NCBI RefSeq assembly: GCF_026167665.1
Contig: NZ_CP098740.1
Coordinates: 3,348,001-3,412,000, forward strand
Direction of reading: 5' to 3'
Source: Streptomyces drozdowiczii
GTDB lineage: Bacteria > Actinomycetota > Actinomycetes > Streptomycetales > Streptomycetaceae
Length of the DNA stretch: 64,000 nucleotides
The position numbers and the translations under genes are program-made. Positions 5,510 to 26,947 of this stretch are shown piece by piece; positions within the stretch are counted from its first letter, which is position 1; each line of letters opens with the position of its first letter. Below the pieces are notes generated by a model that was not told the origin of the DNA, did not search any database, and saw only the letters and a program-made list of their open reading frames with translations.

Positions 5510-5579
5510 ACCTACGAGGTTATCGGGGCGCACTGACAACCGGCTCCGACCGTGACGGGCACCACCCGCACACGCAAGG

Positions 5580-5667
5580 GCCCCCCACGCACCCGCCAGA
5601 GCCAACCTACCCTTGCTGCCTTCCGGCCCTGGGGGAGTTCAGTCAGATAGCGCCACGTGAGGGGCTG
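5580..5667 (-). ncRNA. ffs: Small bacterial signal recognition particle RNA (4.5S type)
   Basis: Read on the minus strand, the segment contains GGGCCGGAAGGCAGCAAGGG, the conserved helix-8 apex of SRP RNA: a GGAA tetraloop with the asymmetric GCAGCA internal loop that binds Ffh. The flanks (5' CCCCTCACGTGGCGC, 3' GCGGGTGCGTGGGG) pair into the long basal stem. A short SRP RNA gene immediately upstream of dnaX is the known arrangement in Streptomyces. The ends are estimated from the limits of pairing. Confidence 0.88.
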
Positions 5668-5779
5668 ACGCCCACCTTAGCCGATCCCCACCCCCACAAG
5701 TCCACCTCGACCACCACCCCGACCCCTCCCCGGGGAACGGGTTCGCGAGCACTCCTCAACGTCTTGTATTGTTTGCGGC

Positions 5780-5864
5780 GGAGGATTCGCCTAGTGGCCT
5801 AGGGCGCACGCTTGGAAAGCGTGTTGGGGGCAACCCCTCACGAGTTCGAATCTCGTATCCTCCG
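5780..5864 (+). tRNA. tRNA-Ser(GGA)
   Basis: The acceptor stem GGAGGAT pairs with ATCCTCC, followed by discriminator G and a genome-encoded CCA at 5865-5867. The anticodon loop TTGGAAA gives GGA. A long variable arm (GTTGGGGGCAACCCCTC region) and a standard GTTCGAATC T-loop confirm a serine tRNA. It marks the boundary between the conserved arm and the CRISPR-containing island, although no integrase is seen. Confidence 0.97.
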
Positions 5865-5887
5865 CCAGTGCCTCACCGGGCACGATG

Positions 5888-5923
5888 TCGAAGGGCCCCA
5901 CCGCTCGCGGTGGGGCCCTTCGA
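5888..5923 (+). terminator. Hairpin terminator after tRNA-Ser(GGA)
   Basis: A perfect 16-bp stem (CGAAGGGCCCCACCGC type arms) with a tiny loop follows the tRNA by about 20 bases. It lacks a clear T-run, as is usual in Streptomyces. It also faces the end of the cas operon coming from the right, so it may stop both transcripts. Confidence 0.75.
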
Positions 5924-5967
5924 CGTGTGTGGTTGCAGTTGCCCTTCGGGCGCCACCGACCTCGGGT

Positions 5968-9508
<3,541 letters not shown>

Positions 9509-9516
<8 letters not shown>

Positions 9517-11121
9517 GGGCGGTCTCCCCTCGGAGTTCGGCGGGCGCTTTCCGTGCGGTGACGAGGTTTTCGAAGAGCTGTACGGCACGGGCCCGGGCGA
9601 GGTTGTTGTCGGCGCTGAGGAGGTGGAGTGCGTCCAGGCGTTGCAGCAGGTGGGCCCGGGCGGTCTTCAGGAGGAGTGCCGCGTACGCGATGCACGGCTC
9701 GGAGACCGGGTCGTCCTCCTCCGGCCCCCGGTCGATCACCTCGTCCAGCAAGGCGTAGAAGGGCTCCTCGGCGGCGGGCCAGAACATCTGCCGGGCGTCG
9801 AGCCTCGCCACCTGGCCCGCCTCGTCCGCCGTGCGCATCGCCGGAAACGCCGTCTCGGCCGCGATGACGGCCGCCTTCCTCAGGGACCACGCCAGGTACT
9901 CGGCGAGGACGGAGCCCCGGTAGGACGCCTGGTAGAGGTGCCGTTCCATGTGCGGGGCGTACGGGTAGGAGCCGTACGTCCAGATGACCGGCAGCGTCTT
10001 GTTCGCCAGCAGCCCCACGGCCCACAGCTGGTAGGGGGCTCCGGCGTCGTCGCTCCGGAGCCGGAGCGAACGGAGCCGCGCGTACAGCCCCGTACGGTCG
10101 TCGCGGACCGCCCCGTAGAGAGCGTGGGCGTCCTGCCAGAGCGCTCTGGTGGGCGAGGGCCACAGCGGCTTGCGTACACCGCCCGCGGTGGTGGCGAACA
10201 CGGCGTCCTGGGAGTGGCGTTCCTGGTCGATGGCAAGGACTTCACCGGCGCCGATCAGCACTCGGTCCACCATGGTCTGCCCGCCCGGACCGGCTGCGGG
10301 GTGCAGCAGCACCGAACGCCCCAGCGCGCTGTGCAGATCGGCCGGGCCCTCTGGCGTGCGGGGCTCGGACGGGCCCTCGAAGCGCCGACGCCGGAATCCG
10401 TCCGGAGTCGTCCAGGAAGTGTTGAGCGTGCCGGTCGGCCCGTCGGACGGGTAAAGGTTGAGACGCAGCGTCTCACCGAGCGTCCGGCCCAGGGCGACGA
10501 CCCGGATACGGCCGTTGAGCCGGCCGGCGGCGAGGTTGGTCACCTTCGCGCCGAGCCGCTTCCCGGAGATCCTTGCCCGCCCGTAGAGGCCGTACGCATG
10601 CTGGGTGAGCATCGCCCGAAATGCTTCGGCGGCCGGAAGAGGGTGGGCCCGTTCGAGATGGTGGTGGTCGAAATGCTGGTTGTAGTCCCCGGCATGCTCG
10701 ATGACCAACTGGGCTGTCCCTGTACTGGATTCGCCGAAGTCACCGGCCAGCTCGCTGCTCTGGCCCAAGGGGCACTCGGGTGGAACAGGTCCCAGTCGTC
10801 ATCGGGACGCCTGTCCAGCCAGTCGGCGGCCGGCGAGAGATCCCGGCCGCTCTCGATCCAGTCCCGCCACTCCTCGTCCGAGCCCGGGCAGACTCCGGCA
10901 GCGAAGCAGATCGCCAGCAGGTACTCGATAACCGACACCGCCTCGCCCGGCGACGAGCACTCGACCGTGAACAGCTCGTCGGCGTGCCGGAGCAGGGCGC
11001 AGAGCGAGTGATGCGCGGAGTGACCGTCGAGCGTGACGGTGGGAACGCAGGGGGAGTACCGGGGGTCCCAGGCGAAGGGACGGAACGCGGAAGCGGGAAG
11101 GGGGAACGGGTCATCGGACAT
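9509..11121 (-). CDS. cse1: Type I-E Cascade large subunit Cas8e/Cse1, interrupted by a frameshift
   Basis: Cse1 (CasA) recognises the PAM and recruits Cas3. The first about 117 codons from the ATG at 11121 (MSDDPFPLPASAFRP through WDLFHPSAP) are in one frame. The remaining about 420 codons (LGQSSELAGDFGESSTGTAQLVIEH to the end) are in another. The junction is the GGGG at 10769-10772: adding one C on the coding strand gives the continuous reading HPSAPLGQSSEL, which fits the family. The second part has the Cse1 FDHHH segment, QASYRGSVLAEYLAWSLRKAA and a helical-bundle C-terminus. Either the gene is broken or, given the same error in other genes here, a base is missing from the sequence. It is the first gene of the operon; no cas3 precedes it. 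Confidence 0.88.
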
Positions 11122-11175
11122 GCTTCTCCACCACCGTCCTTGGTGCGTGAGCGGCGAACCCGGGAACGCATGAGG

Positions 11176-11409
11176 TCATTCCGGGAGGTGACGTCCCCGC
11201 ACGCGCGGGGAGGAAGGGGCTTCCAGAAAAGTCCGACCGAGTCGCGGGGACACTCCCGCACACGCGGGATGAGGCGTTGTGCCGCTCCTGGAGTCAAGAA
11301 CAGCCACCTGGAAGACGCGGTCGGCAACTCCCCCGACCACTGCGGCGATCACGATGAGTACCAGATCGCCTCCACGCCGTCGCAGCCATCCCCACATGAA
11401 CCTGCCCAT
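11176..11409 (-). CDS. Small membrane protein upstream of the cas operon
   Basis: A 77-aa frame starts at ATG 11409 with a good GGAAGG ribosome site seven bases upstream. It has a Trp/Arg-rich N-terminus (MGRFMWGWLRRRGG) and a membrane helix, DLVLIVIAAVVGGVADRVF, at about residues 15-33. From residue 45 on it reads through the two degenerate CRISPR repeats, giving the HPACAGVSP and SSPRVRGRH strings typical of translated I-E repeats. The ancestral protein probably ended near residue 45-52 and the tail is accidental. Same orientation as the 58-aa gene 187 bases upstream. Function unknown. Confidence 0.5.
   Translation of the reverse strand: MGRFMWGWLRRRGGDLVLIVIAAVVGGVADRVFQVAVLDSRSGTTPHPACAGVSPRLGRTFLEAPSSPRVRGRHLPE
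11188..11277 (-). CRISPR. Vestigial type I-E CRISPR: two degenerate repeats
   Basis: Two hairpin units resemble Streptomyces I-E repeats. One has the core TCCCCGCACGCGCGGGGA (11194-11211) and the other TCCCGCACACGCGGGA (11254-11269), each a stem of 5-6 GC pairs around a four-base loop. Their centres are 59 bases apart, close to the 60-61 bases of one repeat plus one spacer. They have diverged from each other at several positions, so the array looks decayed and may hold a single old spacer. They sit just upstream of cse1. Confidence 0.6.
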
Positions 11410-11595
11410 GAATCAACCTTCCGTATCGACGCCTCGCGCCCCCACCCGTCAGAGCAGGGGGCGTCAACACGGCCGATGAAGCGGGCCGTTCGAGAACCAG
11501 TGAAACCGACGGCGGCGCCCTGCCGCAGCCGTTTCGGGAATTCGGCCCCATCTCTAACCATGACCGTGTCGCGTTACGGACCCGGCACACGCCCC

Positions 11596-11772
11596 TCACC
11601 GCCTTCGCAGTCGAACCAGGATGCCGAGCGTCTTGTGGGCGTCCGCGCGTCGTTCCCGGCTGGGCGCGAGGACTGAGACGAGGACGACGACGAAGAGGGC
11701 ACCCATGTAGATCAGGACGGCGTAACCACTCAACAGCGTGGTGCTGGAAAGCATTTGGGAGATCGGGAACAT
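11596..11772 (-). CDS. 58-aa single-span membrane protein
   Basis: The frame from ATG 11772 (ribosome site GAAGGA seven bases upstream) reads MFPISQMLSSTTLLSGYAVL and continues through IYMGALFVVVLVSVLA, one strong membrane helix at about residues 17-37. It ends in a basic tail (SRERRADAHKTLGILVRLRRR). It lies 172 bases from the divergent start of the large NTPase at 11945 and heads towards the second small membrane gene. Not recognised as a known family. A membrane partner for the neighbouring NTPase is possible but unproven. Confidence 0.6.
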   Translation of the reverse strand: MFPISQMLSSTTLLSGYAVLIYMGALFVVVLVSVLAPSRERRADAHKTLGILVRLRRR

Positions 11773-11944
11773 GTGCCATCCTTCGGTTGGGAGCCGGCCA
11801 CCGGCTGCTGCGGTCAGGGGCTCAGCTTCGGGAAAACAGCGGGTGGCCCACCACCAGCAGCGAGCCCGAATCAGCGATTTCCGCAGCTCAGCGAGTCACA
11901 AGAGAACGGTTCGGCCTTCGGACGGCGCAGGTGGGGGCGATGCG

Positions 11945-14900
11945 GTGACCGAGGTGGAGACGGCACGCGGCAGGCTGGGCTCGATGTTGAGCGGTCTGCT
12001 CAACCCTGACCTTGCCCTCAGGGAACTGTCGAAGAGGACCGGCGTCGCCCGCAGCACTCTCCAAGGTTGGATGAACGGAAGGTCAGCACCGGTCACCGGC
12101 GACGAGGATGCCTTCTGGTCCGTCGTGGAGCTACTGAGGGAGACCGCAGACCAGGAGGGCCCCACCGACGCCCAGTGGGCGGAAGCTCTGCGCGCCGCTC
12201 AAGGGGAGAGCGCGGCCGGTCAGGCACAACAGCGTTACGTCGGTGTGCATCGCCCGGCTCACGAGGCGCCCACCACACCGCCACGGGACCGCACCGCCGA
12301 GCGCGCGGTCATGAACGCCTTCGCGCGGGAGACCCGTGCCGGAGCAGCGGCCTATCTGTGCTGGTGCGCGGACGCCCCTACGGGGAAGACCTCGCTGCTC
12401 GCCGACTACGTGCTGCGCCACCGGCCGGACAAGGTCGACATCCTGAGCTACTTCGTCTCTTCGGCGCACCACACCGACACCCTGGCCGCGTTCGAGTCCG
12501 AAATGGCCCGCCAAGTGGGTACGTTCCTCGGTGAGCATCCGGTGCAGCCGCCGCACGGGGCGGCCGAGTGGCACAGGCTCTTCGCCCGGGCCGCGGCGAA
12601 GAGCCGTCGGGAGAAGCGGAACCTTCTGCTCGTGGTCGATGGGCTGGACGATGACGCGGCCTGGCCCGGCGCCGCCGCCGACAGCATCGCCGGGCTGCTG
12701 CCGCCCGCCCCGCCCCGGGGTATGCGCGTCCTCGTCTCGCTGCGCAGTTGCGTACGCCCTCCGGACGACCTGCCGTCCGCGCATCCACTGCGCGACATCG
12801 CGTACCGGCACGTTCTCGGGCACGTCGAGGGCGCTGCCCATGACCGGCAACCGCGCCCGGACCCCACCGCATTGGGCAGATCGGTGGCCGGGATGCTGGC
12901 TGTATCGGGCGGTGGCCTGCGTACGGAGGACCTGGCGGACCTGGTCGGAGTGGCGCGCGATCGGCTGGACCGGCTGTTCCAAGGTCCTGCCGGACGTTCC
13001 CTGGTCCTGGACGACCGGGTCGCCGGGGCGTACCGCCTGGCCGGTCCACAGCTCGAACGCGAAGTGTGGGAGGAGCTGGGGGACGCGGGGGTCGCCCAGT
13101 GCACCCACCAGCTTGTTGCCTGGATACAGAATTGGCAGGCTGCGGACTGGCCGACTGCCACACCGCCGTTTGCGCTCGCGGCGCCGCCGGTCCTCTTCTC
13201 CGCCCTCTCCGCGCGTACGGCGTACGTCCTTGATCCCGCCCGGCTGCACCGCCTTTCCGAAGCGGCCGGCGTGGGAGCCGCACTGGACCAACTCAGCTTC
13301 TTCGAGGCGACCTTCACCGGCACCTCCGACGATCTGGCGGCGCTGGTCCCACTGGCGGCCGCACGGGACATGGTGCGACGGGGAGCCCGCGAGGTGCCCG
13401 AAGGAGCTCCCCCGCTCCTGGCCCGCCTGGGGGAGGTCGCGCGGGCACGCGGACACGCCTTGAGCGCATCCGACCCGATTGTCCGAGCGGTCCATCTCGC
13501 GGACCTGGCCGTGGAGTTGGCGCTCGCCAAGCGGCCCTGTGCGGACGCCGTGGTCCGGGAGGCAGCCGAATGCCTGCCGCGGAACCGGGGCGCCCAAACC
13601 TCCTCCGGGGGCCACCCACCGATCGACGTCTGGGCCCGGCTCCTGGCCTCCGCGGTCGAAGTTCACAGAGCCGCCGGTTCCCGTGCGGCCAAACCGCTGC
13701 TCCTTGCCGTGGTCGACGGCCACGGTGCGGGGGTCGGTGAAATCGCCGACGCGGGCCGGCTGCTGGCCGAGTTCGGCGACCTCGATCTCGTACCGGCGCT
13801 GATCGCACGCGCCGAGACGCTGAGCGCCGGACCTCCGCGGGCTCAGGCGGCCTCGGTGGACATCTGGGCGGCGCTGGCGCGGGCGAAGGGCGTGGACAGC
13901 AGCCTGGCGGGAGACCGGATCGAGGAGATCTGCGCCGAGGTGGAACGTGACGACGCCCTCGGAGCGGTGGAGGTGCTGGCGGCGTCGGCATCGGCGCTCG
14001 TACGGTTTCCCGCCCCAAGGCCGCGTAAGGCGGCCGTCCTGGTGAGAGAAGCCCAGGCACTCTCCTCCGGATTTCTGTCCGTCGCGCGTACCGGGCTACC
14101 GGATGAGGAACAGGCCCGCATGCGACCTGTACTGAAGGGAGCGCTGGCCCGCCTCGCGCACGCCCTGGCGGACACCAAGGCGACGCCGGGGGACCTGCGC
14201 CGCCTCGATCAGCAACTGGACTCCCTGCCGGAGCCCCTGAGCACCGGCGTACTCGGGGAACTCATGGCGGAACGCGGCAAGTGGGTCATCCACAGGGCCG
14301 AAGAGCGCCTGGCCCATCAGGAACGTGAGCTGGCCGATAAGGAGGCGGAGCGGGAGGGACAACGGCGCGCGCTGAAGCAGGAGCGACGGCGGCGGCAAGA
14401 CCGGAAGAACGATCGGCACAAGCGGGCCATGGACGAGTGGAAGGCCGGCGGCCGGGAAGGTCCCGTGCCGGTCCCCGACCCCGCTCCGAAGCCGCATGTA
14501 CCGCTTCCTCCGGCCCCTCGCCGTACACCCCCGCACCGCAGAACCTGGGGCCTCCCCACACCTACCGGTGATCCGCGGGACATGCCCCCGCACCGCCTCC
14601 TGCTCCAGGAGGCGGAGGACCTCCTCCGCGCGGGGAACCATGAGGCGAGCCGCGACCTTCTGGACACAGCGCTACGGGCGGCACCCCTTCTCCAGACTCC
14701 GACCGCCCCCAACGCCCCCGGCAATCAGAATCCCTGGACTGCGGATCTCTGCCAGGCCCTCGGCACGATCGGCGCATTCGACGACGCAACGGCTCTGGTG
14801 ACCCGGTTTGCCGAACCGGTAGACCGGGCAAGGCACCTGGCAGCCCTCTCCGTGGGCTCCTGCCTCAGTGGGCACGACGCCGCCGGGGCCGAATACGCCC

Positions 14901-15778
14901 ATGCGGCGCGCAAACTGCTCCCGGACGACGCTGATCCCGTCCTGGCCGCCCGGGTGAATCAAGCCCTCGCCTACGCCGGCGCCGACAGCGCCGCCCTGGC
15001 TCCGATCAAGGGTGGTACCAGTACGCAGAGGCGGCAGGCAGGCGGGGCAGTCGCCGTCGGCCTCGCCCGGCACCGCCCCGAGGAGGCGGCGCGTCTCGCC
15101 GAAAGCCTCGCCGCGCAACTGGCCCGACGGATCGCGGCGCCGAACCGGACCGGCCCGTTCCGGGTCCTCCCGGAGCTGGCGGCCCTGCTGCTCGCAGCCC
15201 CGGACGTGCTGGCGCCCGACTCGCCTCTGAGGAATTCCCTGCACCAGGCCGTGCGGGAGGTGACTGGCTCACCCGCGCCGCAGCATGCGCCGACGATGAC
15301 GGTCCTCGCTCTCCTCGGGCGACTCGGCGTCCTCTCCGAGGAAACCGCCGAAACCGCCGAAACCACCGTCAGCCGATGGCGTCGTTCGCTCCGGCCGGGG
15401 CCCGGTTCCGCACCCGAGATCGCCCTGCTCGCCGCCGTGGACGGCGACACCGAGCTGGCATGGCGTCACGCCGAATCACTCTCCACCCCGGCGGAACAGT
15501 CACTGGCTCTCGGCGCCGTCGCGGCTCACCTGGCGGGGGTTGAGATTCCGCCGACCACCGACCCACAGGCAGACGACCGCACTGTCCGGCTCTGCCTCGC
15601 CCTCGCCCGAGCCGCCTCCAGGGATACCCCGTCGAGGCCGGAGACGGCCCGGCACACGGTGCACCGACTGCTCGGGACAGGCGGCTGGACGCGCGCGTTC
15701 CCCGCACTGCCCAGCACCGCGCCGGAAGCACTGCCACACCTGACCGCGATCGCGCTGCATACGGCGCCAGGCCGCTAA
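11945..15778 (+). CDS. Large helix-turn-helix STAND-type NTPase
   Basis: The 1,277-aa product starts at GTG 11945 after a GGTGGGGG ribosome site; the frame is open upstream but without coding character. Residues 25-48 form a helix-turn-helix (LRELSKRTGVARSTLQGWMNG). A P-loop follows at 142-150 (ADAPTGKTS, with Ala in place of the first Gly), and Walker B LLLVVDGLDDD at 227-237. Then come an RxLVSLRS sensor strand, a winged-helix-like segment (GGGLRTEDLADLVGVARDRLDRLFQ), and long alpha-helical, TPR-like repeats. About residues 780-835 are a highly charged coiled coil (HQERELADKEAERE). The architecture fits signal-transducing STAND/NACHT-like ATPases, often used in defence or regulation. The ligand and any effector are unknown. 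Confidence 0.72.
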   Translation: MTEVETARGRLGSMLSGLLNPDLALRELSKRTGVARSTLQGWMNGRSAPVTGDEDAFWSVVELLRETADQEGPTDAQWAEALRAAQGESAAGQAQQRYVGVHRPAHEAPTTPPRDRTAERAVMNAFARETRAGAAAYLCWCADAPTGKTSLLADYVLRHRPDKVDILSYFVSSAHHTDTLAAFESEMARQVGTFLGEHPVQPPHGAAEWHRLFARAAAKSRREKRNLLLVVDGLDDDAAWPGAAADSIAGLLPPAPPRGMRVLVSLRSCVRPPDDLPSAHPLRDIAYRHVLGHVEGAAHDRQPRPDPTALGRSVAGMLAVSGGGLRTEDLADLVGVARDRLDRLFQGPAGRSLVLDDRVAGAYRLAGPQLEREVWEELGDAGVAQCTHQLVAWIQNWQAADWPTATPPFALAAPPVLFSALSARTAYVLDPARLHRLSEAAGVGAALDQLSFFEATFTGTSDDLAALVPLAAARDMVRRGAREVPEGAPPLLARLGEVARARGHALSASDPIVRAVHLADLAVELALAKRPCADAVVREAAECLPRNRGAQTSSGGHPPIDVWARLLASAVEVHRAAGSRAAKPLLLAVVDGHGAGVGEIADAGRLLAEFGDLDLVPALIARAETLSAGPPRAQAASVDIWAALARAKGVDSSLAGDRIEEICAEVERDDALGAVEVLAASASALVRFPAPRPRKAAVLVREAQALSSGFLSVARTGLPDEEQARMRPVLKGALARLAHALADTKATPGDLRRLDQQLDSLPEPLSTGVLGELMAERGKWVIHRAEERLAHQERELADKEAEREGQRRALKQERRRRQDRKNDRHKRAMDEWKAGGREGPVPVPDPAPKPHVPLPPAPRRTPPHRRTWGLPTPTGDPRDMPPHRLLLQEAEDLLRAGNHEASRDLLDTALRAAPLLQTPTAPNAPGNQNPWTADLCQALGTIGAFDDATALVTRFAEPVDRARHLAALSVGSCLSGHDAAGAEYAHAARKLLPDDADPVLAARVNQALAYAGADSAALAPIKGGTSTQRRQAGGAVAVGLARHRPEEAARLAESLAAQLARRIAAPNRTGPFRVLPELAALLLAAPDVLAPDSPLRNSLHQAVREVTGSPAPQHAPTMTVLALLGRLGVLSEETAETAETTVSRWRRSLRPGPGSAPEIALLAAVDGDTELAWRHAESLSTPAEQSLALGAVAAHLAGVEIPPTTDPQADDRTVRLCLALARAASRDTPSRPETARHTVHRLLGTGGWTRAFPALPSTAPEALPHLTAIALHTAPGR

Positions 15779-16665: not shown

Positions 16666-17352
16666 TCAGTTCCGTCGCGCGGTGATCACGAGGGCGGTAG
16701 GCCTGTCCCTACCGGGATGACCCAGCTCCGTAGCGGCGGTGATGCGCATATCGGCCTGGGCCAGGGCTCTACGCCAGCCGGCGGCGTCCAACTCCCAGCG
16801 AGCGACCAGGCGTCGACTGCCGTCGGGCAGGTGGAGGGGACTGTGGCGTGGTTGGGCACCACTGGCTGCCGCGGTGCCTGCGCGCTGCGGGTGGGGAATC
16901 GAGAAGGCCAGGATGCCGTGCGGCCGGAGGCGAAGGGCGATCGCGGTGAGCAGAAGCCGGGGATCGACCAGCCCGACCGCGCCGAAGATCGAATAGACGA
17001 TGTCGAAGACCGTCGAGGTCTGTCGCAGGTACCGCATCGCGTCGCATGTGAGGAAGGTCAGCCCGGGCAGAAGACCGTACTGCTCGAGGGCGTGTTGGGT
17101 CTGCAGGTCGATGAGGTCGATCGCGGTCACCTGGGCATGGTGACGACCCGCGAGGTGGGCGGCGTTCCGTCCGTCGCCGCAACCGAGTTCCAGAATCCGA
17201 CGGCCCCGGAGCGCGCGACCCAGCAGCTCGGCACCCGGTCCGATTCCCGGATACGTACCCCACTCAAGGCGAGCGGGCGGGGGTGACGGCTCGCCGGCGA
17301 TCGGCCGGGCCTGCACGGCGTAGTCGTACCAAGGGGAGCACTTGCTGATCAC
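16666..17352 (-). CDS. Class I SAM-dependent methyltransferase
   Basis: The 228-aa product shows the Rossmann-fold SAM site ILELGCGDGRNAAHLAGR (motif I, about residues 53-70), the acidic VTAIDLIDLQ loop after strand 2, and FLTCDAMRYL then FDIVYSIFGAVGLVDPRLLL at motifs III-IV. The C-terminus is a beta-hairpin cap. Substrate unknown; the small size and DUF-free layout suggest a small-molecule or peptide substrate. It follows the gene at 17443-18201 on the same strand, but a strong hairpin lies between them. Confidence 0.85.
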   Translation of the reverse strand: MISKCSPWYDYAVQARPIAGEPSPPPARLEWGTYPGIGPGAELLGRALRGRRILELGCGDGRNAAHLAGRHHAQVTAIDLIDLQTQHALEQYGLLPGLTFLTCDAMRYLRQTSTVFDIVYSIFGAVGLVDPRLLLTAIALRLRPHGILAFSIPHPQRAGTAAASGAQPRHSPLHLPDGSRRLVARWELDAAGWRRALAQADMRITAATELGHPGRDRPTALVITARRN

Positions 17353-17442: not shown

Positions 17443-18201
17443 TCAGCCAGAGAACTCGACCGAGTGTGCGTATACGCGAGCGATCCACTCCGCCTTGAAC
17501 GTCTCCAGGTCCTGACGGAAAGTGGACATGGTGGTGCCGTACGGCGCCACTACACCGCCGGACTGGTCCGCCGCTGCCTGGCAACCGTGCACAAGACGCC
17601 CGCCCAGGGCCGCATGGGCCTTCACGGACTCGATGCGGCGATGCTCGTTGAACCAGCCGCCGTGGTACAGCTCATCGAGCATCCGGCCCTCTTCCTCGTC
17701 CAGTCCGAAGACCACCGAGGTCGCCGCAGGGAAGAACCAGCACGGACCGATGTTCGAAATGTGGCCGTCCAGCTCGACCTTGTTGAGCGCCATCAGAGTG
17801 GCCGCCTCGCACAGCATCCGCAGGTGGTCCGCCGTGACGTTCGGCAGACCGGCGGACTCGAGCAGTTCACTCCGGAAGAGATAGGCGTAGACCTCGTAGG
17901 CGGTGCGCAGCACAAGTGCCGGGTCGGCGGTCGGCTTCGCGTGCTCCTTGATGAAGTCCAGGGCCAGCTGCTCGACCGCGCTGCCGGTCGTTTCGTGAAT
18001 GGGCAGAAGCCCCGTCCGGACCTTCTCCCAGTCAGCCACCAGCCAGCTGTGCGACTCGAGCCGGAAGAAGTACTCGGCCGGGTCGATGGTGAGGGTCCGC
18101 CCCACGACCTGGATACCCGGAAGGCGGTTCCAACCGGGGTGGAACTCGGTGGGAAGGGTCACTTCGATGACGTCGGCCACCGCGAGATTCGTTTCACACA
18201 T
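17443..18201 (-). CDS. Unknown 252-aa protein
   Basis: I chose ATG 18201 (MCETNLAVADVIEV) because it has an AAGGAAA ribosome site at the right distance; the in-frame ATG 33 bases earlier lacks one. The product is acidic and mostly helical, with a Trp-rich centre (LESHSWLVADWEKVRTGL, GPCWFFPAATSVVFGLDEEEG, ELYHGGWFNEHRRIESVKAH). There is no signal peptide, membrane helix or recognised motif. The expression context suggests a dedicated promoter in the 400-base region upstream, which carries two palindromes. Confidence 0.6.
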   Translation of the reverse strand: MCETNLAVADVIEVTLPTEFHPGWNRLPGIQVVGRTLTIDPAEYFFRLESHSWLVADWEKVRTGLLPIHETTGSAVEQLALDFIKEHAKPTADPALVLRTAYEVYAYLFRSELLESAGLPNVTADHLRMLCEAATLMALNKVELDGHISNIGPCWFFPAATSVVFGLDEEEGRMLDELYHGGWFNEHRRIESVKAHAALGGRLVHGCQAAADQSGGVVAPYGTTMSTFRQDLETFKAEWIARVYAHSVEFSG

Positions 18202-18403
18202 TGCTTTATTTCCTTTCCAACCGGATGCGGGCAAAGGAATGCCCGGGCGTCACGAGGCAAGTCGGCCTCGAACACCTGCTCGTAAAGATTCGATCAACCA
18301 TTCTCCTGGGCCCCGGAGTGGAGATCGGGATGAACTGTAGGCGAACCCGACATTCCGCACAGCGACTCCGGAAGCTCAGCGAAATAAATTTTCTGGGTGC
18401 CGG

Positions 18404-18608: not shown

Positions 18609-19891
18609 ATGAGTGTGGGAGGCGCCGGGATCCCGCGGCTGCAAGAACTGACGTACATCGAATCCGCCGCCCTGGCAGTCGCCCGGGGCGAAACCTTCGA
18701 ACGGATTCGCCTGGCCATCCTCGACCGCGCCGAAGCGCTGGCGCGCAGCACCGACCACGACGGCTCCTTCGACTCGGCGAAGTGGCACCGCCGACGCATC
18801 GATTCGACCACCTATGTGCACAACACCGTGGACGTCCTCAAGGAACTGATGCGGCTGGGCTGGGTGGAGCGTCATGTGCTGCCCTCGACCCCGCGATCCG
18901 CCTACGCCCATGCCGACGTGACGTACGAGGTGACCCCCTCCGGACTCGCCTGGACGGACCTGATCCAGCGCAACAGGCTGGACGGCTACAACGCCCTGGT
19001 CGGCGCGCTGCTGCGGGCACACCCGCAGTTCGACGGATACCTGCGCCTGGTCGGCGCACGACCGGACAGCACGACCGATCACCTCACTGTGCCGCTGCTG
19101 CGCAATGACGGGAGCTCAGCCGGCGACTACGAGCGCTACCTCACCGCATTCGTGGCTCATGTGACAGACGCATGCCGAGCCGGCGACCTGGGTTGGACGG
19201 CACCTCCGAAGGTCATTGAAGAGAGCCTTCGCGACTACGTGACCCGCGCTGTCCACCGGGCCGATGCCCGGGCCAGACAGCGGCCGACCGACAACACGAG
19301 CCCAGCCGATCCTCCGGTCACTCGGAAGCGGTTCATGCTGTTGTGCGAGGAGGCAGCAGTCCGGCTCGCGTTCACGTCGGCCGGTTGCACGATGGACTAC
19401 ATCAGCCACGAACTGCTGCGGCGCTGGACCAGGTTCCTCGGCCTCGCGAACTTCAGCTATTACGCCCCGGGCCCTCCGCCCTGCGGCTCTGGGGCACGGG
19501 CCGGGTCGTGGGCACGGGTGAACAGGTGGACTTCCACCGCTCGGTCGGCCCGGATGTCCGGCTCTCAGTCCTCCAGACCCTCCCGCAGATCTGGAGCACC
19601 CCGGACGGACATCTGGACGACGCCTCGTACCACCCGGTGTGGCGCATTCGAGCAGCGGTCTGCTGGAAGCTACGGATCAGCGACGAGGAGTTCGACGCTG
19701 CCATCGGCGCGGCCTACCGCGGCGAGCTGCCCGACCTCGAGTTCCGGGTCCACCTGGACGAGGCAACCCAGCTGAGGACACCCGGCTCCGTCCGCCCGCT
19801 CGTGCTGGGCCAGGGAAGCGGCAGAAACCGCGTGTTCCATGTGATGACTCTCTTCCGTCCGCGCCGTAGCGAGGAGGTGCCCGTCGGATGA
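18609..19891 (+). CDS. Winged-helix-like protein, partner of the P-loop ATPase (frameshifted)
   Basis: From ATG 18609 about 288 codons are in one frame (MSVGGAGIPRLQELTYIESA through FLGLANFSYYAPGP). The rest (SALRLWGTGRVVGTGEQVDF to RRSEEVPVG) is in another and ends four bases into the next gene's ATG. Adding one C at the CCC of 19472-19474 joins them, so a sequence error or recent inactivation is likely. Residues about 55-105 look like a winged helix (STTYVHNTVDVLKELMRLGWVERHVL...TYEVTPSGLAW). The middle and end are not recognised. The ATGA overlap with the ATPase gene implies a functional pair. Confidence 0.65.
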
Positions 19892-21201
19892 GTACCCCTG
19901 CCCGCGTTCCCGGCGTCGTCTGGGTCAAGCGTGAATGGAAATTCCGTACCAATCCCTTTCCAGCCACGGGCATGGCCCGGATCGGCGGGACGGACGACCG
20001 CGAGAACGGCCTGCTCTACGAACCGGACGTACACGCAGAAGAACTCCGGGAAGCCATTGAGAAGTTCGTCCTGGGCATGGCGTTCTCGGGACTCAAGTTC
20101 GGCTACCTGTGGTCGGCCGGCGTCAGCCGGAACGACTCCGACGCCCGAGGGTTCGGAAAGTCCGTATTCATGCAGCATCTGGTGGGGCGGATCAACGCGG
20201 ACTTCGGCGTCGACGTCTACCGGGAGGCGGGGCTGGACTCCGCCGACGCTGCCGAGGTCCCCATCTGCTCGCTCTTCACGAGCTTTGACACCGCCCATGT
20301 CAGATCACTGGGTGCCGCTCTCTTCGCTGCCGTCGAGTACGCGGTGAAGTTCCGGTCGGACGGCACGGCACCCTTGGCCAAACGTCTGCGAGACCGGCTG
20401 GCCGAGCAGATCGGCGACCCCGACGTGAAGGCTCTGACCAAAGCAGTCGCCGATACCCATCGCGCGTTGCGGGGCCGCACCCTGGGCCCGCCCGACGACA
20501 AGCTGATCGTCGCACTGTGCGACGAGGACTCCGGTGCTGCCGCTGACTATCTGACGAAGATCTCTCCTATCTCGCGCTCCCGCAACGGGGCGGTGCACAT
20601 GGCCACGTTTCTGATCTTCGCCGCAGCGGCCGGCATGAAGCACGTTCTCCTCTGTTGCGACCAGTTGGAGGACCTGGCGAGCAGCACAACCGCGAAGGCG
20701 AAGCGCGAACTGGAGGTGGAGCGGTTCCGCGACGTCATCGTGGAGACGCTTCCGATGGCGGACATGCTGACTCTCATCGCCACCATGCACCCCAGGGCTT
20801 CCTTGACAATGAAGCACGCCTGGGCCCTCGCCGATCTGCCCAGCTTCGATCTCACACCCAGCAACCGGTTCAGCACCCTGGAACTTCCGCCACTGCGCGA
20901 CGCGACCCAAGCGGCCCAACTACTCAAGCCCTATCTCGCCGCGGCCACCAAGGAGGGCGCGCAACGGGAGGACGATCTGCTTCCGTTTACCGCCGAGGCG
21001 GTCGACAGCCTCTTCGAGCGGTCCACCCGGAAGCCACGCGATGTCCTGCGCAAGGCGCACATCGTCCTGGTCGCGGCCTCGGGGCTGAACCTCAAAAGCA
21101 TCACCAGCTCCGATGTGGAGAACATCCTCGGCATGCCAGGCCAGCGCATGGCGTCGGACCAGGACGAGATTCCCGGGACCCTTGATTGGAGCCGTGGCTG
21201 A
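19888..21201 (+). CDS. P-loop ATPase of ORC/AAA type
   Basis: The 437-aa product has a phosphate-binding loop DARGFGKSVFMQ (about 85-96), a Walker B strand HVLLCCDQLEDL (252-262) followed by a sensor region (MLTLIATMHPR), and a C-terminal helical domain ending in a winged-helix-like DVENILGMPG. The conserved N-terminus (KREWKFRTNPFP) places an NPF motif before the ATPase core, as in several defence and transposition ATPases. It is translationally coupled to the upstream winged-helix gene. Target unknown; DNA-associated remodelling is the most likely role by family. Confidence 0.68.
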   Translation: MSTPARVPGVVWVKREWKFRTNPFPATGMARIGGTDDRENGLLYEPDVHAEELREAIEKFVLGMAFSGLKFGYLWSAGVSRNDSDARGFGKSVFMQHLVGRINADFGVDVYREAGLDSADAAEVPICSLFTSFDTAHVRSLGAALFAAVEYAVKFRSDGTAPLAKRLRDRLAEQIGDPDVKALTKAVADTHRALRGRTLGPPDDKLIVALCDEDSGAAADYLTKISPISRSRNGAVHMATFLIFAAAAGMKHVLLCCDQLEDLASSTTAKAKRELEVERFRDVIVETLPMADMLTLIATMHPRASLTMKHAWALADLPSFDLTPSNRFSTLELPPLRDATQAAQLLKPYLAAATKEGAQREDDLLPFTAEAVDSLFERSTRKPRDVLRKAHIVLVAASGLNLKSITSSDVENILGMPGQRMASDQDEIPGTLDWSRG

Positions 21202-21213
21202 CTGCTTCGGGTA

Positions 21214-22332
21214 TCAGAGACCGTCGGTCAGTTCGGTCCACAGAGACAACACCGGGGCAGTTTCGCTGTAGGTACCTTTCTTGTTCGAAGCCGGAACAAG
21301 TTCCTCGTAGCGTCGAATCAGCTCGCTCACAGCGACCTGGGTCCTTTTCCTGATCTCCTGTTGCAGGGTTTCGTGCCAGTCGAACGGGAACGATTCATCA
21401 TGCAATCGATCCAGCGGGAGGAAGCGACAGCTAGCCCAATGCAGCAGATCGGGAGCGTACTTGATGAGAAGGCCGTGGCCCTTTTGCCGACTCTTCGGGA
21501 TCTCCTCCAAAGCGCCTTGCGCAGCCCTCTTCACCGCGACTGCCCGCATGACGCCCAGTGGGCTCATTCGAGAGTGGAAAAGCGTCCGGTAGGAGAATGA
21601 GTTCCTGTCGTCCCACAGGCCCATCAGACCGTCAGCACTCACGACCCGGTGGACGTGCCCCGGCCCCGGTCCGGACACGCAGGCGAGCGCTCGGGTCACC
21701 TCGGCCATGGAATAGGCGACCTGGCTCGGCCTCGTCGTAACCCCCCGCCGGACATCGAAGGACCACCTTTCCCAATCGGCCTCCGTCAATCGCCGGATAT
21801 TGGGACACAGACTCAGTCTGTCCTGGGCGTCCCGAAAACTCTGATAGGTGTCCGCGTACCCATGCAGTCTGCGTGCCCGCTCACGTTCCGCACCGCAGTA
21901 CACCTCGACCTTCAGCAACATATCCGCCAGGTGCGCGGGCCCTATTTCATCGAGTACGACGGCAATTGCCTTGAGTCGCTGGTAGCCGTCAATGAGATCG
22001 ATGCCATGGATCCAGAGCCGATCGGCGAACGGTTCGCTGGATCGCTCGGGATAGATCACGTCCGCGCCCAGAGTGATCGACCCGATCAGACCGAAGTCCT
22101 CCGGAGCCTTGCGGGCCAGTTCCTCCAACGCGAGGGTTTCGGGAGCGTCGTCCAAGTACCAGCGTGCGACCTTCAGACGGCGGGCCGCACCGGCTCCGAC
22201 CACCAGTTGCACCAGCTCCACGGCCGGCACCTCAAACGCGACGGAACGTGCCCATCGGACCGCGGCCAGAGGCCGCAGGAGCAGGTTCGGACCACCGCTC
22301 GTCGCATACCTGCGGGAAAGCATCTCATTCAC
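21214..22332 (-). CDS. DGQ-type (ParB/DndB-like) protein
   Basis: The 372-aa product starts at GTG 22332 (or ATG 22323). Residues 108-121 read WIHGIDLIDGYQRLKAI, a variant of the xxDGQHR/xDGQQRL motif found in DndB, GmrSD N-domains and other ParB/Srx-like proteins of restriction and defence systems. Upstream is a long ordered region ([24 protein letters not shown]), downstream a helical C-terminus. It is convergent with the ATPase gene (12 bases apart) and divergent from the HNH enzyme (78 bases). DNA-binding or nicking activity is inferred only. Confidence 0.6.
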   Translation of the reverse strand: MNEMLSRRYATSGGPNLLLRPLAAVRWARSVAFEVPAVELVQLVVGAGAARRLKVARWYLDDAPETLALEELARKAPEDFGLIGSITLGADVIYPERSSEPFADRLWIHGIDLIDGYQRLKAIAVVLDEIGPAHLADMLLKVEVYCGAERERARRLHGYADTYQSFRDAQDRLSLCPNIRRLTEADWERWSFDVRRGVTTRPSQVAYSMAEVTRALACVSGPGPGHVHRVVSADGLMGLWDDRNSFSYRTLFHSRMSPLGVMRAVAVKRAAQGALEEIPKSRQKGHGLLIKYAPDLLHWASCRFLPLDRLHDESFPFDWHETLQQEIRKRTQVAVSELIRRYEELVPASNKKGTYSETAPVLSLWTELTDGL

Positions 22333-22410
22333 GCTCTACCCAACGCACCCAACGGAAAAGCGTGACGTCCGGAAGGTCAGCAGTCCGGACGCGTACTGCA
22401 AACTGGCGGC

Positions 22411-23304
22411 ATGGACTGGCTGGAACGGACCGCGACCCTGCGGCAGTGGAGTCGGAATGGGGCTCGGGCGCCGCACAAGCCGTTGTTGGTGTTGTACGCG
22501 CTTGCGCGGTTTCAGCGGGATGGCTCGGGGGAACTCCGGTACAGCTCCGTGGAGGCGGAGCTCAAGCGGCTGCTCGACGAGTACGGGCCGGGGCGCCCGA
22601 CGACGCCCGCGTACCCGTTCCACCACCTCGTGAGTGACGGGGTGTGGGAGGTGCGCACCGATCGCGGGGCGGGGAGTCCCGGCACCGGCGTACGGGAGTT
22701 GCGGGCGACGGGGGCGACCGGGCGGCTGGTGCCGGAGTTGCGGGACGCGTTGCGGCGGGAGCCGTCCTTGCTCGGGCGGATGGCGCGGGTGCTGCTCGAC
22801 CTCAACTTCCCGCCCTCCCTGCACGAGGAGTTGTGCGAGGCGGTCGGGCTGGAGCTCCAACCGGCCGAGATCGCGGAGGCGGGGACGGCCGTGCGTCGCG
22901 GGCGGGATCCGCGGATGCGGGAGCGGGTGCTGACGGCGTACGAGTACCGGTGCGCGTTCTGCGGGTACGACGGGCGCATCGGCGCGGTCCCCGTAGGACT
23001 CGAGGCCGCGCATGTGCGGTGGTGGGCGTTCGACGGGCCGGACGAGGTGGAGAACGGGCTCTGCCTCTGCTCCCTGCACCACAAGCTGCTCGACAAGGGC
23101 GTCCTCGGCCTCGGTGCCGACGACCGCATCCTCGTGTCGCAGAGCTTCGTCGGCCACAGCGCGGCGGCCGGCGCGCACGTCATAGCGCTCGCCGGCCGCC
23201 CGCTCATCGGGCCGCAGCCCTCCGCCGCCCCGGTCGCCCCGGACCACCGCGCCTGGCACGCGCGCGAGGTGTTCCACGGCGTGCCGCGCGCGGCGGCCGG
23301 CTGA
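22411..23304 (+). CDS. HNH restriction endonuclease with a putative DNA-sulfur-binding domain (McrA type)
   Basis: The 297-aa product opens MDWLERTATLRQWSRNGARA, then PHKPLLVLYALARF. This resembles the sulfur-binding domain of Streptomyces McrA homologues (ScoMcrA/SprMcrA), which bind phosphorothioated DNA. The C-terminal half is an HNH domain: CAFC at 181-184, LEAAHVRWW with His201, NGLCLC with Asn215 and LHHKLL with His223-His224. Such type IV enzymes cut modified incoming DNA. Whether this one needs phosphorothioate or methylcytosine cannot be read from sequence. ATG 22411 is the only sensible start. Confidence 0.8.
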   Translation: MDWLERTATLRQWSRNGARAPHKPLLVLYALARFQRDGSGELRYSSVEAELKRLLDEYGPGRPTTPAYPFHHLVSDGVWEVRTDRGAGSPGTGVRELRATGATGRLVPELRDALRREPSLLGRMARVLLDLNFPPSLHEELCEAVGLELQPAEIAEAGTAVRRGRDPRMRERVLTAYEYRCAFCGYDGRIGAVPVGLEAAHVRWWAFDGPDEVENGLCLCSLHHKLLDKGVLGLGADDRILVSQSFVGHSAAAGAHVIALAGRPLIGPQPSAAPVAPDHRAWHAREVFHGVPRAAAG

Positions 23305-23311
23305 GGCGCCT

Positions 23312-24604
23312 CTACGCCTCCGGCGTCCCGTCCGCCGCGATCCGGCGGAAGCCGAGGTACGGGGTCAGGGCCTCGGGCAGGACGAGGGAGCCGTCCTCCT
23401 GCTGGCACTGTTCGAGGAGGGCCGCCAGGGTGCGGCCGATGGGGAGGCCGGAGCCGTTGAGGGTGGCGACGAGCTTGGGCTTGCCGTTCTCGTCGCGGGT
23501 GCGGATGTGGGCGCGACGGGCCTGGAACGTACCGAAGTTGGAGACCGAGGAGATCTCGCGGTACGTGTTCTGGCTCGGGATCCAGACCTCGATGTCGTAC
23601 GTGAGCTGCGCCGAGAAGCCCGTGTCGCCGGCGGCGAGCATGACCACGCGGTAGGCGAGGCCGAGCTCCTTCAGGCACGCCTCGGCATGGCCGACCATCT
23701 GCTCCAGCTCCGCGTCGGCCTCCGCCGGGTCGACGATGCGGACCATCTCCACCTTGGAGAACTGGTGCTGGCGGATCAGGCCCCGGGTGTCCCGGCCGTA
23801 CGAACCCGCCTCGGACCGGAAGCACGGGGTTTGCGCGGTCAGGGCGAGGGGAAGCTCGGCGGGCGGGATGATCTCGTCCGCGTACAGGTTGGTCAGCGGG
23901 ACCTCGGCCGTCGGGATGAGGAACAGCTCGCGGTCGGCCACACCCGTCTTGAACAGGTCCTCCTCGAACTTCGGGAGCTGTCCGGTGCCGGTCATCGTCT
24001 TACGGGTGACCAGGTACGGGACCGCGTGCTCCACGTAGCCGTGGCGGCGGGTGTGCAGGTCGAGGAAGAGGGTCGCCAGGGCGCGTTCCAGGGCCGCGCC
24101 CGCGCCGCGCGTGACCGCGAAGCGGGGGCCCGAGAGCTTGGTCGCCCGGGCGAAGTCGAGGATGCCCGTCGCCTCGCCGAGGTCGACGTGGTCCTTCGGC
24201 TCGAAGGAGAACACCGGCGGCGTGCCCACGCGCCTGACCTCGACCGCGTCGGCGTCGCTGTCGCCCTCCGGGGCCTCGTCGGACGGGAGGTTGGGGATGC
24301 CGAGGAGGAGGTCGTTCAGCTGCTCCTGGACCTGCTCCTGGTCCGCGTCGATGTTCCGGATCTCGTCCTTCAGCTCGCGGGCCCGCTCCTTCAGCTTGGT
24401 GATGTCACCGCCCTGACGTGCCGTCTGCTGGACCTCGCTCGCCACCCGCTTGGACTCCGCACGCAGCTCGTCGGCCGAGCGGATGTTCTGGTTGCGCCGG
24501 GACTGGAGGTCCTCCAGTGCGGACAGGTCCAGCGTGTAACCGCGACGAGCGAGCCGGCGTACCGCTTCGGCACCCATGTCGATCAGGGCGCGGGCATCAT
24601 GCAT
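23312..24604 (-). CDS. serS: Second-type seryl-tRNA synthetase
   Basis: Class II SerRS charging tRNA-Ser with serine. The 430-aa product has the N-terminal coiled-coil arm (RRNQNIRSADELRAESKRVA...ELKDEIRNIDADQEQ), motif 2 region FRSEAGSYGRDTRGLIRQHQFSKVE and motif 3 LNGSGLPIGRTLAALLE. It lacks the MIDLRLLREDP opening and the LNGTLATTRW motif-3 version known from housekeeping Streptomyces SerRS. It instead looks like the proteobacterial/firmicute form, so it is probably a duplicate gained by transfer. ATG 24604 was chosen as the first conserved Met. It lies next to restriction genes and is divergent from the TerD gene. Confidence 0.88.
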   Translation of the reverse strand: MHDARALIDMGAEAVRRLARRGYTLDLSALEDLQSRRNQNIRSADELRAESKRVASEVQQTARQGGDITKLKERARELKDEIRNIDADQEQVQEQLNDLLLGIPNLPSDEAPEGDSDADAVEVRRVGTPPVFSFEPKDHVDLGEATGILDFARATKLSGPRFAVTRGAGAALERALATLFLDLHTRRHGYVEHAVPYLVTRKTMTGTGQLPKFEEDLFKTGVADRELFLIPTAEVPLTNLYADEIIPPAELPLALTAQTPCFRSEAGSYGRDTRGLIRQHQFSKVEMVRIVDPAEADAELEQMVGHAEACLKELGLAYRVVMLAAGDTGFSAQLTYDIEVWIPSQNTYREISSVSNFGTFQARRAHIRTRDENGKPKLVATLNGSGLPIGRTLAALLEQCQQEDGSLVLPEALTPYLGFRRIAADGTPEA

Positions 24605-24866
24605 GAGGGGTCCTTCTGGTCCGGCGGGTGGGTCGGTGCGTTGCGGCACCGACGGTAGCAATCAGCGGACCTCGCGGGTTCCGCTTTATCGGCGGTGCGG
24701 TCCCGGCGGTTCGGCGTCGGCCGCATACGGAGTTCACGATTCCTTCACGGGTAGTCCATCCGGGGGATACGGTTCTCCCGTGTGCGGCGAGTTGCGCTGT
24801 GTCACGGAACAACCTGCTGCCGTCGCCGGGGCGCCGCCCGACGCGGCCGCGTGTCTGGGGGACTGC

Positions 24867-26947
24867 ATGCGTGAGATGACCAAGGGTGCCAACGTCGGGC
24901 TGGCGGACCTCAGCGACGATGCCGGCACGGTCATCGCGAGCCTGAGCTGGAGCAGCACCGCCGGGGACGGTGACGCGGACGTGTCCGTGCTCCTGCTGGA
25001 CGCGGGCGGCAAGGTCCGCGGCGACGCGGACTTCTTCTACTACAACAACCCCGCCGCGGTCGACGGCAGCGTGCAGCTGCTGGGCAAGACGCCGACGGAC
25101 GGCGGCAGCGAGGACCGCATCAGCCTCGACCTGACCGCCGTCCCCGAGGACGTCGAGCGCCTGGTCGTCGCCGCGAGCCGGTACGGCGGCTCCCGCTTCG
25201 GCGATCTGGACGACCTGCGGATGACCGTCGCCGACCGGTCCGGCGAGGTGCTGCTCGGCTTCTCGATCGGCGACGCCTCCGTGGAGAGCGCCTTCATCTT
25301 CGGCGAGCTGTACCGGCGCGGCACGGAGTGGAAGTACCGGGCCGTCGGCCAGGGTTACGAGACCGGGCTCGCCGGCCTCGCCACGGACTTCGGCATCGAT
25401 GTGGACGACGAGGGCGAGAACGAGGCCGCGGACGCGGTTGCGGACCCGGGTGGCGGGGAAGGCGCCGCGACCGCCGTCGAGTCCCCCGGTGCCGCCGAGC
25501 CGCTCCCCGCCGTTCCCGCGCAGCCAGGCCCGAAAACCTCGGCGGCAGAGGAGCAGCCGGCCGTCCCCGCCCCCGCGCCCAAGAGGCCCCGCGCCCGTAC
25601 GGCGAAGAAGAAGGTGACCCTGCCCGCCCTCGCCACGAAGTCGCTCGCCGAGAACGACTCCTGGCGAGCCGCCCGGCTCTTCCCCGCCTCGAACCTCAAG
25701 AGCGACAAGGAGCGCGAGGTCCGGGCGACCTCGGTGCTGCTGTCCGTGATGGCGCAGGTGCCGGAGTTCGGCCGTCGACTCACCGCCGCCTTCGGCGCCC
25801 CCGCCGGGCGCATGCAGACCTTCACCGAGGTCTCCCTCCCGCACGGCGAGACCCGAAGCGCCCCGACGGGGTGATCCGGGTCGAGCGCGCCGGGAAGCTG
25901 TGGACCGCGCTCGTGGAGACGAAGACCAACGGGAACGCGCTGAAGTCGGAGCAGGTCCAGAACTACATGGACATCGCCGCCCGCCGCGGCTACGAGGCGG
26001 TGATCACCCTCTCCAACGACGTGGCGCTGGAGGGCAGCCCGCTGGTCGAGGTCAAGACCGACGGGCGGCGCAAGCACAAGGTGGCCCTGTGGCACCTGTC
26101 GTGGGCGGAGGTGGCGCACCAGGCCCAGATGCTCATCCGGCACGAGGGCGTGGGCAACGCCGCCCACGCCTGGCTCCTCCAGGAGCTGCTGCACTACCTC
26201 CAGCACGAGAACTCCGGCTGCCACGGCTTCCAGAACATGGGCCCCTCCTGGGTGCCCGTGCGCAACGGCATCGACGAGGAGACGCTCAGCCAGGGCGACC
26301 CGCGCGCCGTGGAGGTCGTGGAGAGCTGGGAACGGCTCATCCGCCAGGTCTGCCTGCGGCTCGGCGGCGAACTCGGGCAGAAGGCCCTGCCCGTCCAGCG
26401 CACCCAGCGCGGCACCACCGCCCTCTCCCGGCGCGCGGCGCACGCGGACCGGCTCTGCGAGGAGGGCCGGCTCGCCGCCGAACTGCGGGTGGACGGCTCG
26501 CCCGGCACCATCACGATCGTCGCCGACCTGCGGACCGGGAAGCTGCGCACCTCGGTGGAGATCCCGGTGCCCGAGGGGGCCTATCCGCTGACGTCGGCCA
26601 AGCGCCTCATGCGGCAGCTCGCCGAGGCACCCGCCGATCTGCACGTCGAGACGCTGGTCGAGGGCCAGAGCGGGCCGCGCGGCACCCTGGAGCGCCTGCG
26701 CCCGGAGCCGGGCGACGTGCTTCCCCGCGACGGCAGCCGGATCACCGGATTCCGGCTCTCCCTCTTCAAGAGCATGGGCGCCACACGGGGCAATGCGGAG
26801 ACCGGGTTCATCCGCAGCGTCGACAACGCCGTGGACCGCTTTCACTCGCATGTGATCGCCCACCTCGCGCAGGCCGAGCGCCGCACCCGCCGCACGTCGG
26901 CCCCGGAGCCGGGAAGTGCCCCGGTCCCGGCGCCCGCGGGGGCCTGA
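24867..26947 (+). CDS. TerD-domain protein fused to a PD-(D/E)XK-like domain (frameshifted)
   Basis: Residues 1-190 are a TerD/CABP stress domain (MTKGANVGLADLS, WSSTAGDGDADVSVLLLDA, DFFYYNNP, FIFGELYRRGTEWKYRAVGQGYETGLAGLA). An Ala/Pro/Lys linker follows. The frame then stops at 25874, but adding one C at 25852-25854 continues smoothly (HGETPKRPDGVIRVERAGK) into a domain with WTALVETKTNGN and VQNYMDIAARRGYEAVITLSN. The E-x-K strand followed by a Q-containing helix is typical of PD-(D/E)XK nucleases. An all-alpha C-terminus follows. ATG 24867 has a GGGGGA ribosome site. The corrected product would be about 693 aa. A calcium-sensing effector nuclease is an inference. Confidence 0.75.

Follow-up and report, generated by a model that had tools for sequence, protein, structure and literature searches.

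A winged-helix protein and an ORC-like ATPase as the candidate core of a rare, mobile and unnamed cassette in Streptomyces

The window analyzed here is a 64,000-nucleotide stretch of a Streptomyces chromosome (S. drozdowiczii, genome G000, a single 7.39-Mb contig, positions 3,348,001-3,412,000), in which a winged-helix (WH) protein, an ORC-like ATPase, a DGQ-type protein and an HNH nuclease are encoded side by side (Table 1). A sequence-only reading of this DNA had suggested that the four genes may form one modification-linked defence system or two abutting ones. We give about even odds (a probability near 0.5) to a different reading, in which a rare, mobile and unnamed invader-control cassette has the WH protein and the ATPase as its two-protein core and the HNH gene rides in the same hotspot independently of it. 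The part of this reading that holds the WH-ATPase pair to be a real, unnamed and mobile unit is supported by the comparisons below.

Fifteen module loci, the window included, were fetched by similarity to the ATPase (L065 and L003 are a single place, and L012 and L064 score identically and are possibly one lineage); because the homologue searches scored only candidates sharing most words, the counts from those searches are lower bounds. At 15/15 of these loci the WH gene adjoins the ATPase gene, which supports the pairing proposed from the overlapping genes of the window, and the pair recurs distantly in Azospirillum within a trio of ATPase, WH and a restriction endonuclease (REase)-like protein. 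The ATPase carries the motifs RGFGKS (87-92), CDQLED (257-262), HPR (301-303) and KPRD (382-385), and its predicted AAA+ fold has the ORC-type arrangement and motifs that mark the ORC/Cdc6 clade, so that its earlier designation as ORC-like stands. The winged-helix label combines the earlier call with our own reading of the sequence and is not a computed fold. Neither protein was assigned to a family by the Pfam, NCBIfam and PADLOC scans, and profiles of the ATPase, the WH and DGQ proteins and the Zn-ribbon-like protein described below retrieved no significant relative among PDB sequences. Relatives of the ATPase were not found in phage records, and plasmids yielded one distant match.

The usual third partner, present at 13/15 loci and missing only from the window and L002, is a Zn-ribbon-like protein encoded after the ATPase or after a REase-like gene; the sequence-only reading missed it because the gene is absent from the window. 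Its name reflects our reading of its CxxC/CxC cysteines (one member matches Zn_ribbon_NUD, E 0.059), and it also carries the motif RFCWAGxGxYGLYRHG; a HARE-HTH domain, considered as a candidate, had Pfam support in 0/7 members. At three of the 15 loci (L007, L010 and L011), a PD-(D/E)XK-like protein is encoded between the ATPase and the Zn-ribbon-like protein, and another lies beside the Azospirillum pair, a linkage that spans Actinomycetota, Chloroflexi and Azospirillum; residues D68, E81 and K83 are invariant in all four proteins. Pfam gave no significant family for the Zn-ribbon-like and REase-like members scanned, nor did PADLOC for those submitted to it.

The DGQ protein accompanies the pair at 5/15 loci. 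An uncharacterized protein, F4, is present at all five but also elsewhere without them: F4 matches were found in 49 of 295 Streptomyces genomes (E <= 1e-3; four are weak partial matches), which include only three (G000, G044 and G230) of the five ATPase genomes, ruling out F4 and its neighbouring methyltransferase as module parts. Given that F4 is common without the ATPase and that a methyltransferase lies within about 1.5 kb of it at 18 of 19 other F4 loci, the two are a pair of their own that frequently accompanies the module. By eye, the surroundings of F4 include a NUDIX-like and a regulator-like gene at two loci (L116 and L118) and a relaxase-like gene at L118.

By raw count, the setting is mobile or defence-related at 12/15 module loci. 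Three (the window, L002 and L003) lie in the tRNA-Ser/dnaX hotspot, and six (L005, L006, L009, L012, L064 and L074, the last a contig from a viral collection) have integrase, DUF3631 and relaxase genes, identified as such by Pfam in L009, as neighbours; the other nine had no match to these proteins. On the other side of the cassette, five of the six have a tRNA-Thr (L074 does not, in the stretch read), and in four of these five (L005, L006, L012 and L064; L009 is the exception) a stretch of about 200 nt, made up of the 3' portion of tRNA-Thr and what lies beyond it, recurs just past the cassette at the integrase with 74-82% identity (in L005, direct-repeat copies at 7980-8181 and 12044-12238). 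With tRNA-Thr-derived repeats on both sides, the cassette of WH, ATPase and Zn-ribbon-like protein is bracketed by att-like repeats and may be read as a cis-mobilizable segment. Further modules adjoin a Shedu-type gene (SduA_C; L004) or a type I restriction-modification system (L010), or lie about 3 kb from a DUF499 gene (L011; above the Pfam cut-off, below that of NCBIfam). No hotspot, mobile-element or defence neighbour was seen at L007, L008 and L063, and in G044, G175 and G141 the module lies 0.34 to 1.1 Mb away from dnaX. Because 12/15 loci are in hotspot, mobile or defence settings, defence cargo is the likeliest, if unproven, reading of the module.

The same settings bear on an alternative that we consider rather doubtful but the most serious, namely that the pair, with or without the Zn-ribbon-like protein, performs housekeeping for mobile elements, its ORC/TnsC/MuB-like ATPase and DNA-binding partner aiding an island's or integrative element's replication, maintenance or exclusion of competitors. 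Consistent with such a role, the predicted ATPase fold matches ORC, TnsC and MuB alike, 12/15 loci have no nuclease, and the six loci beside integrase, DUF3631 and relaxase genes include the viral-collection contig; however, those elements already come with an integrase and a relaxase of their own, the nine remaining loci had no match to these three proteins, and the REase linkage across distant lineages argues against housekeeping. BrxC also appears among the Foldseek matches of the ATPase, and a family missing from the fold-match lists of the ATPase or the DGQ protein is not thereby excluded.

Under the invader-control reading, the WH protein would bind and select DNA, and the ATPase would assemble on the WH-bound DNA through the WH protein, as ORC/TnsC-type ATPases of its predicted fold do, and then switch on an exchangeable effector. 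In deep-branching members, the effector may be the linked PD-(D/E)XK protein, a putative nuclease by its motif, and in the Streptomyces branch with DGQ this role may fall to the DGQ protein, which looks GmrS/ParB-like and would act by binding or hydrolyzing nucleotides; the Zn-ribbon-like protein, linked in most members, could be an adaptor or sensor. An extension of this scheme, possible but tentative, is a defence family not yet described, carried at att sites in Actinomycetota and Chloroflexota and with remote relatives in Pseudomonadota, in which the PD-(D/E)XK nuclease, the Zn-ribbon-like protein and a nuclease-less, GmrS-type nucleotide-binding DGQ protein are swapped as effectors on a constant WH-ATPase sensor-motor core. 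If so, the Streptomyces version with DGQ would act by nucleotide turnover or signalling, not by DNA cutting. Within the wider question of how ORC-clade ATPases hand DNA recognition to an effector, an ATPase of 437 aa that keeps one constant partner while its effectors are exchanged would offer a minimal and testable case.

The ATPase, DGQ and HNH ORFs of the window are as the sequence-only reading described them; the WH gene occupies two reading frames, with the break near 19466-19478 in the assembly. In a Hidden Markov Model (HMM) built from 25 WH relatives, positions 1-279 match the frame of the first part and 275-412 that of the second, and residues 1-295 and 292-428 of the L002 protein map to the same two parts. 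Every other WH gene scored by the HMM has a single open frame (the remote Azospirillum WH matches only in part). The frameshift would silence the module in this genome, unless it is a sequencing error. That the copy is a dead remnant, as its broken WH frame and lost third gene might suggest, seems unlikely to us, given that an intact, nearly identical 427-aa WH copy exists in the protein database (P0137, 99% identity over the first part) and that L002 also lacks the Zn-ribbon-like gene, yet has intact WH and ATPase genes. Elsewhere in the window, the overlapping ORFs 24576-25874 and 25328-26947 look by eye like one longer protein over two frames, a possible second frameshift that hints at assembly errors.

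The DGQ protein had been likened to DndB and to the N-domains of GmrSD. The second likeness persists as a weak match of the predicted fold to ParB/GmrS; the first is reduced to local similarity around the motif (hhalign probability 18.5, E 0.0013), and PADLOC gave no DndB match for the DGQ protein, whereas it matches the DndB encoded at a distant Ssp locus of the same genome. No Pfam domain was found in the protein and no GmrD/HNH nuclease part is present. Among the 295 genomes, the ATPase occurs in five and full-length DGQ in seven, together in three (Fisher p = 8e-5, relatedness uncorrected), and 4/7 DGQ genomes have no ATPase. The DGQ census listed ten genomes, of which G011, G143 and G253 were dropped as partial matches (E 1.8e-6 to 8.4e-5); an internal stop ascribed to the G261 gene was contradicted by its open frame and not used. 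At L060 (9331-13241), a DGQ protein without the WH-ATPase pair has a fused N6-methylase/specificity protein close by.

The absence of Ssp genes noted by the sequence-only reading is true of the window but not of the genome, which has SspA, SspB, SspC (1201 aa), SspD and DndB genes at 1.61 Mb, about 1.75 Mb away. That DUF4007 is the SspB family was borne out when PADLOC named the match in this genome SspB; a second SspD-like gene (58 bits) also lies at this locus, and dndC (TIGR03183) had no match in the genome at E <= 0.01. An identity of WH and ATPase with SspB and SspC, considered after PMC10853773, was rejected. While 14 PADLOC SspC/BrxC models matched true SspC, none matched the window ATPase or its L011 relative (E <= 1), and hhalign gave a probability of 0.8 for the ATPase against the genome's own SspC, a single-sequence comparison of weak power. 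Likewise, DUF4007 does not appear in the list of 14 families that 25 WH members gave at E <= 1, and the WH protein against the genome's own SspB scored 0.1, with the limited power of a single-sequence template. It is also very unlikely that the DGQ protein is an SspE- or DndB-like partner of this Ssp phosphorothioation system, placed beside the WH-ATPase pair by accident: in a 199-genome sample, SspB was found in only one of four DGQ genomes (G000; not G044, G162 or G184), a DndB is already encoded at the Ssp locus, and DGQ tracks the ATPase.

For the HNH enzyme, the earlier McrA-like, sulfur-binding assignment is upheld. The whole protein matches NF045808 with 339 bits (curated cut-off 180), as well as HNH_2, and its N-domain has weak matches (E 0.04-0.05) to 7cc9, 7ccd and 7ccj ("HNHc domain-containing protein"), which we take to be SBD_Spr structures. 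Judged by sequence, it is a SprMcrA-type enzyme with a sulfur-binding domain (SBD) and an HNH domain, of a known phosphorothioate (PT)-dependent family. Its SBD has HK at 22-23 (counted from the ORF) and YP at 68-69, the HK/HR and YP sulfur-pocket residues given as an SBD feature in PMC7461809.

This gene is far commoner than the module, with matches in 140/295 genomes (E <= 1e-3, some partial) and in 96 at E <= 1e-50, the threshold at which it was associated neither with ATPase genomes (3/5, p = 0.33) nor with DGQ genomes (3/7, p = 0.69). In G273 it sits in the dnaX/tRNA-Ser hotspot with no module there, while the module at L002, in the same hotspot, has no HNH gene within the stretch read. 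Contexts were read over ~16-20 kb around six other HNH loci (L068-L073) and in 1.5-kb flanks around 29 (L030-L058), of the 140 genomes, with three genomes common to both sets. The HNH gene is thus supported as independent cargo of the hotspot. The sequence-only reading had proposed a co-occurrence check and had named genes found apart in most genomes as evidence against the shared module: WH and DGQ do go with the ATPase, HNH goes with neither ATPase nor DGQ genomes, and separation applies to HNH and in part, given the 4/7 DGQ genomes without the ATPase, to DGQ. The four genes as a single modification-linked system are therefore largely refuted: HNH does adjoin DGQ in the window, and in S. lichenis (L003, G230) about 0.6 kb separates the two, but these are the only 2/15 module loci with HNH, both in the hotspot that carries it without the module.

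Streptomyces genomes with SspB carry the SBD-HNH gene more often, not less often, than those without (11/16 versus 57/183 at E <= 1e-50, p = 0.004, relatedness uncorrected, assuming that the 199-genome sample is the first 199 handles of the genome set, as the listing suggests). This contrasts with the rarity of PT-dependent enzymes beside dnd clusters reported in PMC7461809. SspABCD and a predicted PT-dependent SBD-HNH enzyme in one genome make a natural test of the coexistence of sulfur marking and a sulfur-dependent nuclease, that is, of whether the two tolerate each other when their sequence contexts differ.

The island is bordered by dnaX/tRNA-Ser(GGA) on one side and a seryl-tRNA synthetase gene (23312-24661) on the other. 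The tRNA-Ser of the window recurs at L002 and L003, where the module is present, and at L072, which has HNH but no module.

Table 1. Features of the window and of the Ssp locus in the same genome (window positions unless a locus is named)
Feature	Position	Strand	Remarks
dnaX	4358-5509	-	NCBIfam NF005846, 841 bits
tRNA-Ser(GGA)	5780..5867	+	adjoins dnaX; hotspot holding the island
STAND_TPR ATPase, candidate defence gene	11738..15778	+	PADLOC PDLC01173, E 1.2e-301; island neighbour, outside the module
Small SAM-dependent methyltransferase	16666..17352	-	Methyltransf_25; paired with F4; no recognized DNA methylase
F4, uncharacterized protein	17443..18234	-	divergent from WH
WH gene, first part	18609..19478	+	N-terminal two thirds of a ~430-aa DNA-binding-type protein
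WH gene, second part, other frame	19466..19891	+	TGA overlaps ATPase ATG (ATGA)
ORC/Cdc6-like AAA+ ATPase, 437 aa	19888..21201	+	
DGQ protein, 372 aa	21214..22332	-	putative ParB/Srx-type N-domain and helical part; looks GmrS-like; nuclease domain not recognized
SprMcrA-type SBD-HNH restriction enzyme, predicted PT-dependent, 297 aa	22411..23304	+	apart from the module
SspABCD and DndB locus	L094 (G000:C1:1605000-1624900), 3637-14172		PADLOC

Several known systems share parts with these genes. The window HNH enzyme has the SBD, the HNH domain and the HK and YP residues of SprMcrA, with no fundamental difference from it as described in PMC7461809. Of the type IV restriction enzymes GmrSD/BrxU, the DGQ protein would have the GmrS-like part only, the adjacent HNH being the independently occurring SBD-HNH enzyme. 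Ssp, BREX and Tn7-like systems include ATPases of the ORC clade (PMC10853773 and PMC12839542). The BREX proteins BrxC and BrxD have an ORC/Cdc6 ATPase in common with the module (PMC12839542); BrxC, at 1,200-1,300 aa, is far longer than the module ATPase, and neither PglZ nor BrxX was among the nine window proteins scanned with PADLOC. SspBCD-SspE shares with the module a DNA-binding protein, an ORC-clade ATPase and a DGQ-type protein, but the module has no SspD or SspA, its DGQ protein no recognized nuclease domain, and its ATPase has 437 aa against the 1,201 aa of the genome's SspC, with no detectable homology of the pair to its SspB and SspC. A literature search, supplements excluded, found no description of the WH-ATPase-Zn-ribbon cassette. 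The closest description seen is one sentence in section 22 of PMC10853773, which places Orc/Cdc6 genes with a triple winged helix-turn-helix (wHTH) protein and a REase-ASCH protein in mobile neighbourhoods. These differ from the module in that a Zn-ribbon-like or DGQ protein is commoner here than a REase, that Pfam recognized no ASCH in the REase-like protein, and that no HerA/FtsK turned up among the proteins scanned. They resemble it in that an ORC-clade ATPase occurs together with a wHTH-type protein and a REase in settings that are mobile and defence-like and, compared by description alone, since that text gives no accessions, may cover the WH-ATPase family.
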